In this document: positions 48,763-55,286 of the stretch, piece by piece
Position numbering within the stretch: position 1 is the stretch's first letter
Layout: every line of letters starts with the position of its first letter
From: Candidatus Binatia bacterium
GTDB lineage: Bacteria; Desulfobacterota; Binatia; HRBIN30; BPIQ01
Assembly (NCBI GenBank): GCA_026004195.1
Contig: BPIQ01000002.1
Coordinates: 310,001-374,000, forward strand
DNA length: 64,000 nucleotides
Direction: 5' to 3'
Notes under the pieces: model-generated
Database searches by the model: none
What the model was told of the DNA's origin: nothing
Seen by the model: only the letters and a program-made list of their open reading frames with translations
Position numbers and translations under genes: made by a program

Positions 48763-49242
48763 ATGTCGCTCTGGAGCCGACTCGGCCGCATTCTGGTGGG
48801 CGGGGAAGAACCCGAGCCCGAGGAAATCCTCCCCCGCCTCCGTCGCCTCTATGCGGCCACGGTGGAGCGCCAGCGCTCCATGCTCCGGCACGCGGAGCTC
48901 GCCCCCAACGAAGCGTCGAGGGAGGGGCTCACCAAGCTCGCCGAGGAGGAAAAAGAGCTCGCCGAGCGGCTCAGGGAGCTCGTGGCCCGGCACGGGGGCT
49001 TCGCGGGGGACGTTCCCGCGGGAGAACCCCCACCCCCCGGCCTGAACCACTGGAGTCGGCTCGTTCAGGACCTCGAAGCGCACCGCTCGGCCGTCAAGGA
49101 GCTCCTCGACCACGCGGCCGATCTCACGGACGACGAGCCCGAGCTGGCCGAAGCGCTCCGGGAGCTCGCCCGGCGGGAAGAAATCCACGTGTTTCTCCTC
49201 CGCCGGCTCGTGGCCCGCGCCGACCCGCAGGCGATCGACTAG
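48763..49242 (+). CDS. Helical protein, possibly ferritin-like
   Basis: The 159-residue protein is a bundle of polar helices (ILPRLRRLYAATVERQRSML, EGLTKLAEEEKELAERLREL, LVQDLEAHRSAVKELLDHAA, EALRELARREEIHVFLLRRL). Glu and His are placed as EExxxH-like pairs, reminiscent of rubrerythrin or ferritin-like four-helix bundles, but the metal motif is not secure. A short gap to the tkt 3' end shows convergence (4-bp overlap). ATG 48763 is favoured over 48727. Confidence 0.5.
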   Translation: MSLWSRLGRILVGGEEPEPEEILPRLRRLYAATVERQRSMLRHAELAPNEASREGLTKLAEEEKELAERLRELVARHGGFAGDVPAGEPPPPGLNHWSRLVQDLEAHRSAVKELLDHAADLTDDEPELAEALRELARREEIHVFLLRRLVARADPQAID

Positions 49243-51092
49243 GACTCTCGGGCGAGGCGTTCTGCCGCGGCGACGATGGCCTGGTGGTCGATCCCGTAAG
49301 CGTGCAGAAGCTCGGCGGGCTTTCCGGACCGCGGAATTTCTCGCACCGCCAGTTTGTGCACCCGGATCCCCTCGCGACCCACGGCTTCGAGCACCGCCTC
49401 TCCGAGCCCCCCTTCCGGGTAGTGGTCCTCGACGGTCAGGATCTTGCCCCCGCACTCCTTGCCCGACCGGACCAGCGTGGCCGCGTCGATCGGTTTGACG
49501 GAGTACGCGTCGATCACGCGAACGGAAAGACCGCGGTCGCGCAGGATCTCGAACGCTCTGAGCGCCTCGAACACCGTGATCCCGGCCGTCACGACGGCCA
49601 GCGAATCCCGCCCGTCACCGGACCGCAGGACCTTCGAGCCGCCCGCGGAGAACTCCTCGGAGGCGGAGTACAGGATAGGCGTCTTGGGCCTCGTGAGCCG
49701 GAGGTAGGAGATTCCGGGCAGGCTCGCGGCGAGCACGACGAGCTTTTCCGTGGAAACGGCGTCGCACGGATAGAAGACCGTGGAGCCGGGGAGAGCACGC
49801 ATCATGGCGAGGTCCTCGAGCCCCATTTGCGACGGACCGTCCTCTCCGATGGAGACCCCGCAGTGGGAACCGGCGCACTTGAGGTTCGCCCGCGAAATGG
49901 CCGCCATGCGCAGGTGGTCGAAAGCGCGGGTGAGAAAGCAGGCGAAGGTGGAGAGAAACGGGACCTTCCCGCAAGCCGCGAGACCGACGGCCGTGCCGAC
50001 CATGTTCTGCTCGGCGATGAATTCCTCGAAAAAGCGGTCGGGGTAGGCGGCGAGGAAGCGCTCCGAAAACGTCGAGTTCTTCGTGTCGGCGTCCAGAACG
50101 ACGATCTCGGGGCGAACGGCCCCGAGCTTGACCAGCGCCGAGCCGTACGCTTCCCGCGTGGCGACCGAGTCGTCCGTGCGGTACTCGGGGGGCGGAATCG
50201 GACGGTCACCGCTCGGCGGAGGCGGGCTCCAGGGCTCGGGGCGCCGAGGCGAGACGGGTGGGACTTCCCGGCGCGCCTCGGGTTCGAGTTCCCGCAGTGC
50301 CCGCTCGAGCTCTTCCCCCTTCTTGAGAGCCTTCCCGTGCCAGCCCTCTTTGTCTTCGAGGAACGAGACTCCTTTTCCCTTGCGGGTTTCCGCCACGATG
50401 GCAAAAGGGCGGTCGGCGCGTCTCGCAAGATCGAACGCCCCGAGGATCTGTGCCGGGTCGTGACCGTCGATGCCCACGGCCTCCCAACCGAAGCTCCGGA
50501 GCCGGGCGCAGTAGGAGTCCACGTCGAATCCGTACATCGTTCGCTGGCTTTGCCCGAAGCCGTTCACGTCCACGATGGCCACGAGGTTGTCGAGACCGTA
50601 GTAGGCCCCGAGAGCCACGGCTTCCCACACGCTTCCCTCCGCCGTCTCGCCGTCCCCCAGGAGGACGTAGACGCGGAACGGCCGGCCGTCCCGCTTCGCG
50701 GCGAGAGCGAGCCCCACACCGATCGAGAGGCCCTGCCCGAGGGACCCCGTAGCGGCGATGGCGCCCGGAAAGCGGGGAGTCGGATGCCCCTCGAGCTCGC
50801 TGTCGAACCGGCGGAGCGTGAGCAATTTTTCCGGGTCGAAAGCCCCTGCCTCGGCCCAGGCCGCGTAGAGCAGCGGGGCCGCGTGCCCCTTGGAGAGGAC
50901 GAACCGGTCGTTGTCGGGATGGCCCGGGGACTCGGGGTGGTAGCGCATGACGTGGAAGAAAAGCGCGGCGACGAGGTCCGCCGCGGAAAGGCAGCTCGTC
51001 GGGTGGCCGGAACCGGCCTCGGACGTGGACCGGAGGCAGTGGACGCGCAGCCGAGCTGCACGGACGCGGATTTGGTCTTCTGCCGAATTCAT
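49239..51092 (-). CDS. tkt: Transketolase
   Basis: Transketolase moves two-carbon units in the pentose phosphate and Calvin-type pathways. The 617-residue protein is close in size to the shorter eukaryote-like form. It has the ThDP site GDGETAEGSVWEAVALGAYY then DNLVAIVDVNGFGQSQR, the RFVLSKGHAAPLLYAAWAEA segment, the catalytic Glu in FEEFIAEQNMVGTAVGLAA and SHCGVSIGEDGPSQMGLEDL. DXS was considered because dxs is missing from the ispA region, but the E-N-M motif and overall layout fit transketolase. It follows the MoaD-like gene by 37 bp. Confidence 0.92.
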   Translation of the reverse strand: MNSAEDQIRVRAARLRVHCLRSTSEAGSGHPTSCLSAADLVAALFFHVMRYHPESPGHPDNDRFVLSKGHAAPLLYAAWAEAGAFDPEKLLTLRRFDSELEGHPTPRFPGAIAATGSLGQGLSIGVGLALAAKRDGRPFRVYVLLGDGETAEGSVWEAVALGAYYGLDNLVAIVDVNGFGQSQRTMYGFDVDSYCARLRSFGWEAVGIDGHDPAQILGAFDLARRADRPFAIVAETRKGKGVSFLEDKEGWHGKALKKGEELERALRELEPEARREVPPVSPRRPEPWSPPPPSGDRPIPPPEYRTDDSVATREAYGSALVKLGAVRPEIVVLDADTKNSTFSERFLAAYPDRFFEEFIAEQNMVGTAVGLAACGKVPFLSTFACFLTRAFDHLRMAAISRANLKCAGSHCGVSIGEDGPSQMGLEDLAMMRALPGSTVFYPCDAVSTEKLVVLAASLPGISYLRLTRPKTPILYSASEEFSAGGSKVLRSGDGRDSLAVVTAGITVFEALRAFEILRDRGLSVRVIDAYSVKPIDAATLVRSGKECGGKILTVEDHYPEGGLGEAVLEAVGREGIRVHKLAVREIPRSGKPAELLHAYGIDHQAIVAAAERLARES

Positions 51093-51129: not shown

Positions 51130-51426
51130 TCACGACCCCGCCGATTCTACCGCGAAATCCTCTCGCGGAGCCACCGCGAATTGCGCCGGGAGACCGCCCG
51201 CGAGCGGCGGGAAGACGTCGAGGTGGGCTCCGTCGGCGAGAACCGCGTCGGGCTCCAGCGACCGGTCGCCCGAAACGGTCATGCCCGCGTGCTTCGGCGG
51301 GATCCCGAGCCGTTCGATCACCTGCGCCACCGTGGCCCCGTCGGGCACTTCGACCTCCGTCCTGCCCCCCGTCTCGGGCGGAAGGAACTTTTTCAACTGC
51401 GCATGGAGTTGGACGGTGACTTTCAC
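51130..51426 (-). CDS. MoaD/ThiS-family sulfur-carrier protein with C-terminal extension
   Basis: The 98-residue protein has the beta-grasp fold: VTVQLHAQLKKFLPP, GRTEVEVPDGATVAQVIERL, MTVSGDRSLEPDAVLADGAH and LDVFPPLAGG. In MoaD and ThiS the last two residues are GG, which is adenylated or thiocarboxylated. Here GG is followed by another 20 residues. The GTG start (51426) overlaps the FAD enzyme stop (GTGA) and has GGAGG upstream. It probably serves a tungsten or molybdenum pterin or a sulfur relay, with the MoeB-rhodanese gene 2 kb upstream. Confidence 0.8.
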   Translation of the reverse strand: MKVTVQLHAQLKKFLPPETGGRTEVEVPDGATVAQVIERLGIPPKHAGMTVSGDRSLEPDAVLADGAHLDVFPPLAGGLPAQFAVAPREDFAVESAGS

Positions 51427-52688
51427 GTGCGAACCTCCGGCACGTCCCGGACGGTGAGGGCGTACGTGAAGCGTGGCTGGTGGTGTCGCTCGAAGTCTTT
51501 CCAGCGGGCACGCCGGCGAATCCAGGAGTGCACCACACCCATTTCGGCGACGCCGTGGGCATCCCCCAGGTACATGGCGCCGACGACGACCCCGTCCCGG
51601 TCCACGACGATCTTCCGGTAGGCGTCGCCGCGGCCGCCTCCGAGGAGCTTCACGTCGTCGCCCGGGCCTTCGCGGAAGCGCCCGATCTGTGCCAGGGTCA
51701 CGTGGAAAAGCTCCACGACGTTCATGCCGAGAGAGCCGTCGTACGCGATCTGGCGTCCCGTCATGTTGGCTCCGGCGATCCGTCCCTGCTCGACCGCCGA
51801 GGGCCAGATCGCGTGGAGCACACGCTGGCCGCCCCCGAGAAAATCGACGACTTCGGCCACGTCGCCGGCCGCGAAAATCCCGGGTCGGGAAGTCCGGAGA
51901 AATTCGTCGACGAGAATGCCGCGCCCGATCTCGCAGACCTCCGGTGTCACGCACGAGAGGTTCGGCCTCACGCCCGCGGCGACGACGACCAGATCGACGA
52001 CGACCTTCCTTCCGTTACCGAGCTCCGCTTCGATTTCCCCGGAGGGCTTTCGGGCGAGGGTCCGCACCGTCGTGCCGAGCTCCAGCGTGACGCCTTCGTC
52101 CCGGACCGCCTCGCCGAATCGCTTTCCACCCTCTTCGTCGAGGAGCTGCGGCAGGAGTTGCGGGGCCATCTCGACGATCGTGAGCCGAATCCTGAGCTTG
52201 CGGAGCGCCTCGGCTGCGAGCATGCCGATGAAGCCGCCGCCGATGACGAGCCCCGTCCTCGCCTTTTCGGCCGCCGCTTTGAGGCCCCGGGCGTCCTCGA
52301 GCGTCCAGAGGTAGTGGACCGGCACCTCGGAGAGACCCGAGACGGGTGGCGCCACGCACTCCGAGCCGGTGGCCAGGAGAAGCTTCTCGTAACCCACGCT
52401 CCTCCCGTCGGCGAGGGAGATCTTCCTGGCCTCGGGATCCACCGCCACCACGGGCGCCGCGTCGAGAAGCTCGACGCCCTTTTCTTCGTAGTCGCGAGGC
52501 GTGCGGATCCACAGATCCTCGAGCGTCATTTCCCCCGCGACGTAATAGGGCAGCGCGACCCGGGAGTACGCGGGGCCCGGCTCGCGGTTCACGAGCAGGA
52601 TGCGTCCCTCGCGGTCGTACTTCCGGATCCAATCGACGGCGGCCAGCGAAGCCGCGCTGTTGCCGACCAGGACGTAGCGAGCGTCCAT
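51423..52688 (-). CDS. FAD/NAD(P)H-dependent oxidoreductase (AorC/nitrite-reductase-like)
   Basis: The 421-residue protein has the FAD motif YVLVGNSAASLAAVDWIRKY at the N-terminus, SRVALPYYVAGEMTLEDLWI, LLLATGSECVAPPV, the NAD motif LVIGGGFIGMLAAEALRKL (about 145-163), and VVAAGVRPNLS then GIFAAGDVAEVVDF. It resembles the FAD subunit next to tungsten aldehyde oxidoreductases (AorC) and NirB-like reductases. It probably shuttles electrons between NAD(P)H and the four-cluster ferredoxin encoded just upstream (10 bp away). Confidence 0.85.
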   Translation of the reverse strand: MDARYVLVGNSAASLAAVDWIRKYDREGRILLVNREPGPAYSRVALPYYVAGEMTLEDLWIRTPRDYEEKGVELLDAAPVVAVDPEARKISLADGRSVGYEKLLLATGSECVAPPVSGLSEVPVHYLWTLEDARGLKAAAEKARTGLVIGGGFIGMLAAEALRKLRIRLTIVEMAPQLLPQLLDEEGGKRFGEAVRDEGVTLELGTTVRTLARKPSGEIEAELGNGRKVVVDLVVVAAGVRPNLSCVTPEVCEIGRGILVDEFLRTSRPGIFAAGDVAEVVDFLGGGQRVLHAIWPSAVEQGRIAGANMTGRQIAYDGSLGMNVVELFHVTLAQIGRFREGPGDDVKLLGGGRGDAYRKIVVDRDGVVVGAMYLGDAHGVAEMGVVHSWIRRRARWKDFERHHQPRFTYALTVRDVPEVRT

Positions 52689-52698
52689 CGGATGCGCG

Positions 52699-53169
52699 TC
52701 AGGTTCCAGCCAGGGCGCGGTGCACGACCGAAGCGAAGAACTTCTGCTTGGCTTTCGCGTCGGTCTCGACCTCGGCGAATTCCAGCGCGCCCGGGACGCA
52801 GAACTTCACGCACTCGGGGTCGCCACCGCAGAGGTCGCAGTTCTGGGCGACTCCCCGTTCGGGGGCGAAGCCCATCACCCCGAAAGGACAGGCGAGCAGG
52901 CACATCTTGCACCCGATGCACCGCTCTTCGAGAACTCGAACGGTTCCGTCCGGGTCCCTCCGGATGGCCACCGTGGGGCAGACCGTGCCGCAGGGCATGT
53001 CGGCACAGTGCACGCAGGTGAGCGGCAGGTAGAACTGTTCTTCGTAGAAGTCGTTCACCCGAATCCGGGAGAGCGCCGGGTTGAAGACGCCCTCGTGGGA
53101 GAACGAGCACGCGAGCTCGCACTCCCGGCACGCCGTGCATTTCTCCTGGTGGACGACGATTTGCTTCAT
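52699..53169 (-). CDS. Four-cluster [4Fe-4S] ferredoxin (HycB/AorA type)
   Basis: The 156-residue protein has cysteine sets CTACRECELAC, CVHCADMPCGTVCP, CIGCKMCLLACPFG and CDLCGGDPECVKFCVPGA, enough for four [4Fe-4S] clusters, as in HycB-like electron-transfer subunits and AorA. It would carry electrons between a catalytic oxidoreductase and the FAD protein. It lies between the MoeB-rhodanese and FAD genes. No catalytic tungsten or molybdenum subunit is adjacent. Confidence 0.9.
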   Translation of the reverse strand: MKQIVVHQEKCTACRECELACSFSHEGVFNPALSRIRVNDFYEEQFYLPLTCVHCADMPCGTVCPTVAIRRDPDGTVRVLEERCIGCKMCLLACPFGVMGFAPERGVAQNCDLCGGDPECVKFCVPGALEFAEVETDAKAKQKFFASVVHRALAGT

Positions 53170-53190: not shown

Positions 53191-54384
53191 TCAGGGACGA
53201 GCGGGCTGCGCCCCGCCGGAAGCCCGAAGCCCGCAGAACTCCTCGTAGTCGACGAGCTCCCGCACCGTGGGCTCGTCGCCGCACACGGGGCATTTCGGGT
53301 CCCTGCGCATTTTGTGGATTCGGAGCTCCATGCCGAGCGTGTCGAAGTACACCATACGCCCGATCAGCGGCCTGCCGATTCCGAGGATGAGCTTGATCGT
53401 CTCGAGCGCCTGAACGCAGCCCACGAGGCCGGGCAGGACTCCCAGCACGCCCGCCTCCTGGCAGCTCGGCGCCGCACCCGGAGGCGGAGGCTCGGGAAAG
53501 AGGCAGCGGTAGCAGGGCCCCTTGCCCGGGTAGAAGACCGTCGCCTGCCCCTCGAACTGGAAGATGCTCCCGTGGACGTTGGGCTTGCCCGTCATCACGC
53601 AGGCGTCGTTCACGAGATAACGGGTGGGGAAGTTGTCGCAACCGTCGACGACGATGTCGTAGTCGGCGAGGATCGAGAGGATGTTCTGCGAGGTGAGCCG
53701 CTCCCTGTAGGGGACGACCCGCACGTCGGGGTTCAGCGCTTCGAGGGTACGCTTGGCCGACTCGACTTTCGGCATGCCGATCCGGTCCTCGGAGTGGAGG
53801 ATCTGCCTCTGGAGGTTACTCCGGTCCACGAGGTCGTGGTCGACGATGCCGAGCGTGCCCACACCCGCCGCGGCCAGGTAGTAGGCGGCGGGCGAACCGA
53901 GGCCACCGGCCCCGACGAGGAGCACCTTGGCGTCGAGAAGCTTCGCTTGCCCGCGCTCGCCCACCTCCGGAAGGATGAAGTGGCGGCTGTAGCGCTCGAC
54001 CTGCTCCGGCGTGAACTTCCTTTCCTGCTCCCAGGGATAACCGGCGTTCTTCCAGGCGTTGTAGCCCCCCGCCATCGAGACGACGTTCTCGTAGCCCATT
54101 TCTTTGAGGATTTTCGCCGCGAGGAGCGACCGCGTCCCACCGGCGCAGTAGGCCACGATGGGCGTCGACTTGTCGGGGACCACCTCCTCGACCCGCATTT
54201 CGAGAAAGCCCCGGGGCAGGGAAACGGCTCCGGGCAGGTGGCCTTCTCGGTACTCTTCTTTTTCCCGCACGTCGAGGAGGAGAAAGCCCTTTCCGTTGGA
54301 GAGCCTCTGCCGGACTTCGTCGACACTCCACTCCGGAACGGTTTTCTTGGCTTCCTCGAGAATTTCCCGGAACGTCTTGGCCAT
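53191..54384 (-). CDS. moeB: Rhodanese-ThiF/MoeB fusion (sulfur-carrier activating enzyme)
   Basis: The 397-residue protein has an N-terminal rhodanese (about 18-115: LLLDVREKEEYREGHLPGAV, active Cys80 in AYCAGGTRS) and a C-terminal E1-like domain (about 125-397: YSRHFILPEVGERGQAKLLD, ATP site GAGGLGSPAAYYL at 158-170, DHDLVDRSNLQRQILHSEDR, GCDNFPTRYLVND; zinc cysteines CYRC and CPVC). It should adenylate the MoaD-like protein and supply sulfur. The usual MoeBR order is E1 first, rhodanese last; here it is reversed. It starts at ATG 54384. Confidence 0.9.
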   Translation of the reverse strand: MAKTFREILEEAKKTVPEWSVDEVRQRLSNGKGFLLLDVREKEEYREGHLPGAVSLPRGFLEMRVEEVVPDKSTPIVAYCAGGTRSLLAAKILKEMGYENVVSMAGGYNAWKNAGYPWEQERKFTPEQVERYSRHFILPEVGERGQAKLLDAKVLLVGAGGLGSPAAYYLAAAGVGTLGIVDHDLVDRSNLQRQILHSEDRIGMPKVESAKRTLEALNPDVRVVPYRERLTSQNILSILADYDIVVDGCDNFPTRYLVNDACVMTGKPNVHGSIFQFEGQATVFYPGKGPCYRCLFPEPPPPGAAPSCQEAGVLGVLPGLVGCVQALETIKLILGIGRPLIGRMVYFDTLGMELRIHKMRRDPKCPVCGDEPTVRELVDYEEFCGLRASGGAQPARP

Positions 54385-54413: not shown

Positions 54414-54668
54414 TTATAGTCCCTGCCCTTCCGAGGGTCCACCGGCGCCTTCGAGGGCCCGTCGAAGCTCCCGGATCCGCCGGTCGCTGGCGAGCGCGTG
54501 AACGATGGCGAGCAGATTCGCCCCCAGGCACGTGAACAGCGCGGCCACGCCCCACGTGAAGTGGGATTCGACGTCCGCGGACCCGTGGAGGAGGCCGACG
54601 CCGCGGAAAAACGCGACGAAAAGAACGGTCGTGGAAACCAGCAGCAGTGCCGCAGTGACCTTCGCCAT
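54414..54668 (-). CDS. Small two-helix membrane protein
   Basis: The 84-residue protein has two membrane segments (VTAALLLVSTTVLFVAFFRG and GVAALFTCLGANLLAIVHAL) and a charged cytoplasmic tail (DRRIRELRRALEGAG). No domain is recognised. It lies between the NuoI-like gene (12 bp) and moeB (29 bp) in the same direction, so it is probably part of this unit. A partner or anchor for the ferredoxin proteins is possible but unproven. Confidence 0.6.
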   Translation of the reverse strand: MAKVTAALLLVSTTVLFVAFFRGVGLLHGSADVESHFTWGVAALFTCLGANLLAIVHALASDRRIRELRRALEGAGGPSEGQGL

Positions 54669-54680
54669 CGCCCTCGGGGC

Positions 54681-55286
54681 TCAAGAAGCCGCGCGCCCGA
54701 TGCTCGCCGGCTCGAACCTCCCCTCCCGGACGTCGCGCACGAGGTCCTCGAGCAGTGCATTCCTGCCCCGCTCGGCGAGAATCCGGGACCTCTCCATCAG
54801 GATTTCTTTCGTCTCGATGAAATCTTCCCGCCGGTAACCCCAGATCCTCGGGTGCACGTAGGTATCCATGCGGATGGCGTCGCACGGGCACGCCTCGACG
54901 CAGAGCCCGCAGTAGATACAGCGCAACGTGTCGATCTCGTACCGAACCGGATACTTCTCCACGTGAGGGTCCGGATGCTCGCCGGCCTCGATGTAGATGC
55001 AGTGTGCAGGACAGGCCGTGGCGCAGAGAAAGCAAGCCGTGCAGCGGACCGAGCCGTCTTCTTTGAGCGTGAGCCGGTGGGCACCGCGGAAGTTGTCGGG
55101 GTAGTGTTTGACTTCGTCGGGGTACTGCACCGTCACGGCAGCGCGGACCTGCCGCGCGAGACCGAGCGCATGGAGGACGTGCAGGAAAAGATTGCGCCAG
55201 AAGCGGTACACGACCACGAAGAGGCCCCGCAGGACCTCCGGCAGGTAGAGCTTCTCCCAGAAACCGAGTTCGCGACGGCGCTGCAT
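54681..55286 (-). CDS. NuoI-like two-cluster [4Fe-4S] protein
   Basis: The 201-residue protein resembles the complex I subunit NuoI: FRGAHRLTLKEDGSVRCTAC, the cluster sets CTACFLCATACP and CIYCGLCVEACPCDAIRMDT, and the C-terminal helix RAILAERG-like region. It begins with MQRRRELGFWEKLYLPEVLR. No other nuo gene is in the window, so it may be an orphan complex I subunit or the electron acceptor of the neighbouring module. ATG 55286 is preferred over upstream starts in the DUF255 gene. Confidence 0.8.
   Translation of the reverse strand: MQRRRELGFWEKLYLPEVLRGLFVVVYRFWRNLFLHVLHALGLARQVRAAVTVQYPDEVKHYPDNFRGAHRLTLKEDGSVRCTACFLCATACPAHCIYIEAGEHPDPHVEKYPVRYEIDTLRCIYCGLCVEACPCDAIRMDTYVHPRIWGYRREDFIETKEILMERSRILAERGRNALLEDLVRDVREGRFEPASIGRAAS

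Follow-up and report, generated by a model that had tools for sequence, protein, structure and literature searches.

A tail behind the Gly-Gly of a MoaD/ThiS-type sulfur carrier in Binatia: a probable precursor for trimming by a JAMM peptidase

The gene of a MoaD/ThiS sulfur carrier is assumed to end at its Gly-Gly (GG). In the window analysed here, a 64,000-nucleotide stretch of a Candidatus Binatia bacterium genome (contig BPIQ01000002.1), the reading frame at 51130-51426 on the minus strand runs on past that point: it translates into 98 amino acids with the C-terminal end FPPLAGGLPAQFAVAPREDFAVESAGS, followed by TGA, which raises the question of whether such a protein could still act as a carrier, and how. 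The gene divides into two parts:

51193..51426, minus strand: MoaD/ThiS-type sulfur-carrier core, 78 codons, GTG through PPLAGG (PF02597 4.6e-07, PF14451 4.5e-08, beta-grasp model, Foldseek)
51130..51192, minus strand: tail behind the Gly-Gly, 20 codons plus the TGA stop (translation, frames, composition, low pLDDT)

An earlier note, made from the letters of this DNA, had claimed that PPLAGG is not C-terminal in this protein, and both translation and profile alignment bear this out: Pfam ThiS PF02597 matches residues 16-78 with 30.7 bits (cut-off 22.5), its last profile position falls on the second G of PPLAGG, and 20 residues lie beyond. The encoded C-terminus is not Gly-Gly, and a Gly-Gly end would appear only upon processing. 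An AlphaFold2 model (alignment A3, 23 rows) has a beta-grasp core with a pLDDT of about 83-93 for residues 1-70 and a tail below 50, and its top Foldseek matches are the sulfurtransferase chain 5ztb, P. furiosus MoaD, mycobacterial MPT synthase, SAMP1 and TtuB; MoaD and SAMP chains were also retrieved by a profile search.

The tail does not trace to a simple reading-frame accident. As the note had stated, no frameshift yields a terminal GG: both alternative frames 3' of the carrier GG were read and neither ends in one, which rules out a frameshift-lost stop that hides such an end. Overlap with the downstream gene is ruled out for the window as well, the transketolase ATG lying 37 nt past the carrier stop. 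Third-position GC is 0.70 in the tail (20 codons) versus 0.86 in the core (78 codons), a difference in keeping with a young extension, with 20 codons being a small sample. At its other end, the carrier's GTG start shares bases with the stop codon of the FAD oxidoreductase gene upstream, an arrangement of the kind expected for translational coupling within an operon. The neighbouring genes, whose Aor names we assigned by analogy with those described in PMC6365974, are as follows:

54681..55286, minus strand: NuoI-like 4Fe-4S protein (Fer4_7 2e-09; NuoI-type NCBIfam matches below cut-off), a kept neighbour in relatives; the start position is our choice
54414..54668, minus strand: 84-aa protein, no family matched (Pfam, NCBIfam)
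53191..54384, minus strand: rhodanese-MoeB/ThiF E1-type activating enzyme (ThiF 4.7e-87, Rhodanese 2.2e-23; NCBIfam MoeB PRK08762 582.6 bits, cut-off 449)
52699..53169, minus strand: multi-cluster 4Fe-4S ferredoxin subunit, AorA-like (Fer4_11 4.6e-14)
51423..52688, minus strand: FAD/NAD(P)H oxidoreductase, AorC/PadH-like, overlapping the carrier start (Pyr_redox_2 2.8e-51; NCBIfam PadH 3.6e-88, below cut-off)
49239..51092, minus strand: transketolase, the next gene downstream of the carrier (PRK05899.2-5, 890 bits, cut-off 488), a kept neighbour in class relatives

By analogy with described gene sets, the carrier gene is placed in a tungsten-cofactor/AOR-type operon. A tungsten cofactor operon set listed by Iyer et al. 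(PMC1779556 Table 1) groups AOR with MoaD, MoeB, ferredoxin and a pyridine nucleotide-disulphide oxidoreductase, and the Aromatoleum genes described in PMC6365974 comprise aorABC plus the MoaD-like aorD/aorE. The ferredoxin, FAD oxidoreductase, MoaD and MoeB set is complete in the window operon, where the rhodanese-MoeB, above the NCBIfam MoeB cut-off, provides a cognate-type E1 (adenylating/sulfurating) gene. The window carrier thereby resembles the AorD-type MoaD of AOR/tungsten-cofactor operons in the gene set that surrounds it (PMC1779556, PMC6365974); it differs from it in that its GG is not terminal as encoded and in that no AOR catalytic gene adjoins the window operon genes. Two AFOR_N genes lie elsewhere in the genome (C1:1191757 and C4:60613), one of which (AFOR_N + AFOR_C) is 67% identical to the AOR of the relative G016. 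Because that homologue stands directly before the ferredoxin, FAD and carrier genes in G016 (locus L131), the window genes plausibly serve the AFOR_N/AFOR_C-type AOR encoded elsewhere in their own genome.

How the tail fares among relatives is the first comparison that bears on its meaning. Carrier matches occur in 34 of the 148 genomes of the class. The class carriers amount to 48 unique loci: 32 with 1-41 residues past the GG, 14 that end at GG, and two that end in PPLAG. One genome, G098, was read twice (L032, L126) and counted once, so that 15 GG-ended rows represent 14 loci; left out of the counts were a carrier cut by a contig end (L047), matches with E above 1e-8, and eight segments stopping at model position 74 (of the FPPELAFN type or similar, with no GG end). 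The loci fall into two groups, one of the window type (NuoI, MoeB-rhodanese, often ferredoxin and FAD genes, carrier, transketolase) and one of paralogs in FeS-AOR-FAD-carrier operons, and tailed members are present in both. Outside the class, 109 phylum loci were read, from the best 91 of 190 genomes with a match, by score; 104 of these carriers end at GG and five have tails (2, 8, 20, 7 and 14 residues).

The earlier note had suggested aligning relatives for conservation of the tail, and none emerged: the tails neither align nor keep their length, which rules out a conserved functional tail peptide. Judging by these alignments, the carrier core, GG included, is conserved while the tail is not. 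Close class pairs illustrate how the 3' end changes. The carriers of G009 and G008 differ in 2 of 78 core residues and, by a 7-nt indel just past the GG, have tails of 8 versus 14 residues; in the AOR-operon paralogs of the same two genomes, TAA versus GAA gives a GGSG end (tail SG) versus a 30-residue tail; and the carriers of G006 and G003 have TGA in the former versus TGC in the latter. It is directly visible in these pairs that stop-codon changes leave the core undamaged and that stop losses are tolerated.

Such comparisons weigh on two other explanations of the tail. The note had offered, besides proteolytic trimming, that the carrier role might be lost. The protein would then be a structural or regulatory beta-grasp protein whose C-terminus is irrelevant; the tolerance of any tail length among relatives would suit this, as would the two class members that end with one glycine. 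We nevertheless consider it very unlikely, given that FPPLAGG is among the most conserved carrier segments in a strongly conserved core, that GG is present in 46 of the 48 unique class carriers, and that the rhodanese-MoeB neighbour is kept in most window-type loci. The note had also held that relatives ending in GG would point to a lost stop codon here. Most of the distant relatives do end exactly at GG, and this, together with the lower third-position GC of the tail, is what a sequencing error that removed the stop in this assembly, from a gene whose true protein ends near GG, could claim in its favour; yet no frame change gives a terminal GG, and, with most class relatives tailed as well, a tail is what one would expect here, such that an error has the slimmest of chances. 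Trimming is not overturned by the GG-ended distant relatives either, because most class relatives are tailed and stop losses are directly seen to be tolerated there.

If the tail is to be removed, a peptidase is needed, and the search for one that the note had recommended turned up a candidate outside the carrier operon. The genome of the window encodes a single Prok-JAB (JAMM) gene above the family cut-off (PF14464, 67 bits), with the intact motif HSHPDHDAYFSAED; it is unlinked to the carrier, lying on contig C1 with the carrier on C2, and no protease gene was found among the operon genes scanned (Pfam, NCBIfam). Five ThiS-family matches above cut-off occur in the genome: a MoaD-MoaE fusion with an internal VSGG-APSS, a CysO-like carrier that ends in AIAGGV directly before a CysM-like gene, the window carrier, and two GG-ended proteins. 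With the GG non-terminal in the first three, three of the five would need a cut.

Across genomes, carrier tails appear to track the JAMM peptidase, being found almost only in JAMM genomes. A genome was scored as having JAMM if its Prok-JAB match reached 40 bits; most matches below this fall in frames of ~225-260 aa, which we take to be RadC. JAMM is present in 134 of the 148 class genomes, too nearly all of them for the class to put the link to the test. Among the phylum carriers sampled outside the class, all five tailed ones, which represent five families, come from JAMM genomes, versus 26 of the 104 GG-ended carriers (78 from genomes without). Counted by genome, with kinship not modelled, tails occur in 5 of 23 JAMM genomes versus 0 of 68 without (p = 7.2e-4), and counted by family in 5 of 11 versus 0 of 29 (p = 7.0e-4); the p value of the phylum test rises to 0.0043 if weak matches are counted as JAMM. 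Families f24 and f88 contain both states: their JAMM-less genomes (4 and 1, respectively) are all GG-ended, and in either family the genome with a tailed carrier possesses JAMM. Replication came from 28 further named genomes (46 loci minus 18 from genomes already counted, with no core counted before), in which JAMM accompanies 11 of 12 tailed versus 3 of 16 GG-ended carriers (p = 3.4e-4 with kinship not modelled, or 0.006 once weak JAMM matches are included); seven of these 12 tails belong to one Latescibacterota-like cluster and are not independent, so the effective number is smaller. Carriers may also end at GG despite JAMM, as do 14 unique class carriers and the 26 of the phylum sample.

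One genome additionally joins the tailed carrier to JAMM physically. In G359 (L282 4494-7043), carrier, JAMM (motif HSHPEGPAWPSSVD) and ThiF-rhodanese genes stand in a row on the same strand, the carrier has a 14-residue tail, and its stop overlaps the JAMM start as ATGA; an AOR gene of the same orientation lies ~4.4 kb upstream, separated from the row by reading frames on the opposite strand. In the thiamine and MoCo/WCo operon types as listed by Iyer et al., no JAB gene appears (PMC1779556).

It is possible in principle that general cellular peptidases trim a disordered tail back to the folded core, with JAMM unneeded and its co-occurrence due to lineage or lifestyle. The predicted disorder of the tail agrees with this, as does the one-residue tail (R) of a Rokubacteria CSP1-6 carrier (L252), in whose genome no JAMM was detected even at E 10, beyond a 20-bit partial match. 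General peptidases would, however, allow tails everywhere, and none was seen in the sampled JAMM-less phylum genomes, those of f24 and f88 included; the linkage in G359 argues against them too, and we regard this explanation as unlikely. Between the two readings of the earlier note, trimming is the one with comparative support, from the near-restriction of tails to JAMM genomes, the retained GG and the G359 linkage, and the evidence speaks against a lost carrier role.

The window carrier is thus probably a precursor that is trimmed after its GG by JAMM and then loaded by the rhodanese-MoeB, with a drifting tail. The gene would encode a MoaD-type sulfur carrier in capped precursor form, for a tungsten/molybdenum-pterin (AOR-type) system; the single JAMM/MPN+ metallopeptidase of the genome, encoded elsewhere, would cut behind the second glycine and expose the Gly-Gly carboxylate, which the neighbouring rhodanese-MoeB would then adenylate and thiocarboxylate. 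Because the peptidase would remove whatever comes after the GG, the stop codon would be under little selection, and the length and sequence of the tail could drift neutrally.

QbsE, a sulfur carrier of this kind, carries its own cap. Capped sulfur carriers of thiocarboxylic-acid natural products typically require a protease such as QbsD, as described in PMC6006322, and the QbsE/QbsD system and PtmS2/PtmS3 with PtmS1 share with the window a MoaD/ThiS-type carrier with residues past the GG and a genome with JAMM and a MoeB/MoeZ-type E1. Their caps are of one or two residues, they belong to natural-product systems, and PtmS1 is clustered with PtmS2 (PMC6006322), whereas the window carrier has 20 residues, an AOR-type operon, an unlinked JAMM and a tail that is not conserved among relatives. 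Internal GG motifs are likewise freed by JAMM in fusions, of which the window's genome has one of its own: HvJAMM1 cuts SAMP1-MoaE exactly after the GG, with no cut detected upon deletion of the GG (PMC4443979), and DRJAMM cuts MoaD-MoaE after the GG (PMC8832034). In those fusions a folded functional enzyme comes after the GG, in contrast to the predicted disordered, dispensable tail of the window carrier. A short peptide past the GG is also removed from the Caldiarchaeum precursors, CsJAMM cutting CsSAMP precursors and the JAMM-type CsRpn11 taking 9 residues off CsUb (PMC6043591), although this is an archaeal protein-modifier system with no cofactor operon. For the loading step, mycobacterial MoeZR, which acts on MoaD and CysO (PMC3227635), offers a precedent. 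Capped carriers with JAMM partners are thus already known, and long drifting caps in an AOR-type carrier family are a variant; in the open-licence literature, with most subscription papers outside its scope, we found no paper that describes such caps for AOR-type carriers or correlates them with JAMM.

We would give even chances to a broader proposal, namely that JAMM frees the stop codon of cofactor-pathway carriers from selection, that the 3' end drifts neutrally in JAMM lineages, and that tungsten/molybdenum-pterin synthesis then depends on one promiscuous JAMM serving the AOR-type MoaD, MoaD-MoaE and the CysO-like protein. If true, the rule that the gene ends at GG would fail for sulfur carriers in JAMM lineages, and annotation should not class tailed carriers as defective; in Binatia, Latescibacterota-like and Rokubacteria lineages, JAMM would become a predicted factor in the maturation of pterin-cofactor enzymes, and a clear evolutionary case would be at hand of a peptidase that relaxes selection on a stop codon.

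Several further observations were made along the way. The two PPLAG ends belong to carriers that adjoin rhodanese-MoeB (L118 in G072 and L130 in G071), where a stop replaces the second glycine; a third member of the genus ends in PPLAGGC. A second MoaD-like protein without any GG, its domain ending in FPPE plus a stretch such as LAFN, was met in L074 (G160), L171 (G197), L199, L187, L181, L186 and L160; in G160 and G197 its gene comes directly after a GG-ended carrier gene, and it is possibly an AorE-type partner. Throughout the class, transketolase recurs beside window-type carriers (the window, L114, L115, L116, L119-L124, L127-L129). In G078, an amidophosphoribosyltransferase-like gene (L114 3741-5162), presumably PurF-like, lies between the rhodanese-MoeB and ferredoxin genes. 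Lastly, L236 (CAMBFS010000031.1) is titled Klebsiella pneumoniae and has a Binatia-type locus with a carrier core identical to that of the class genome G011; the title looks wrong.
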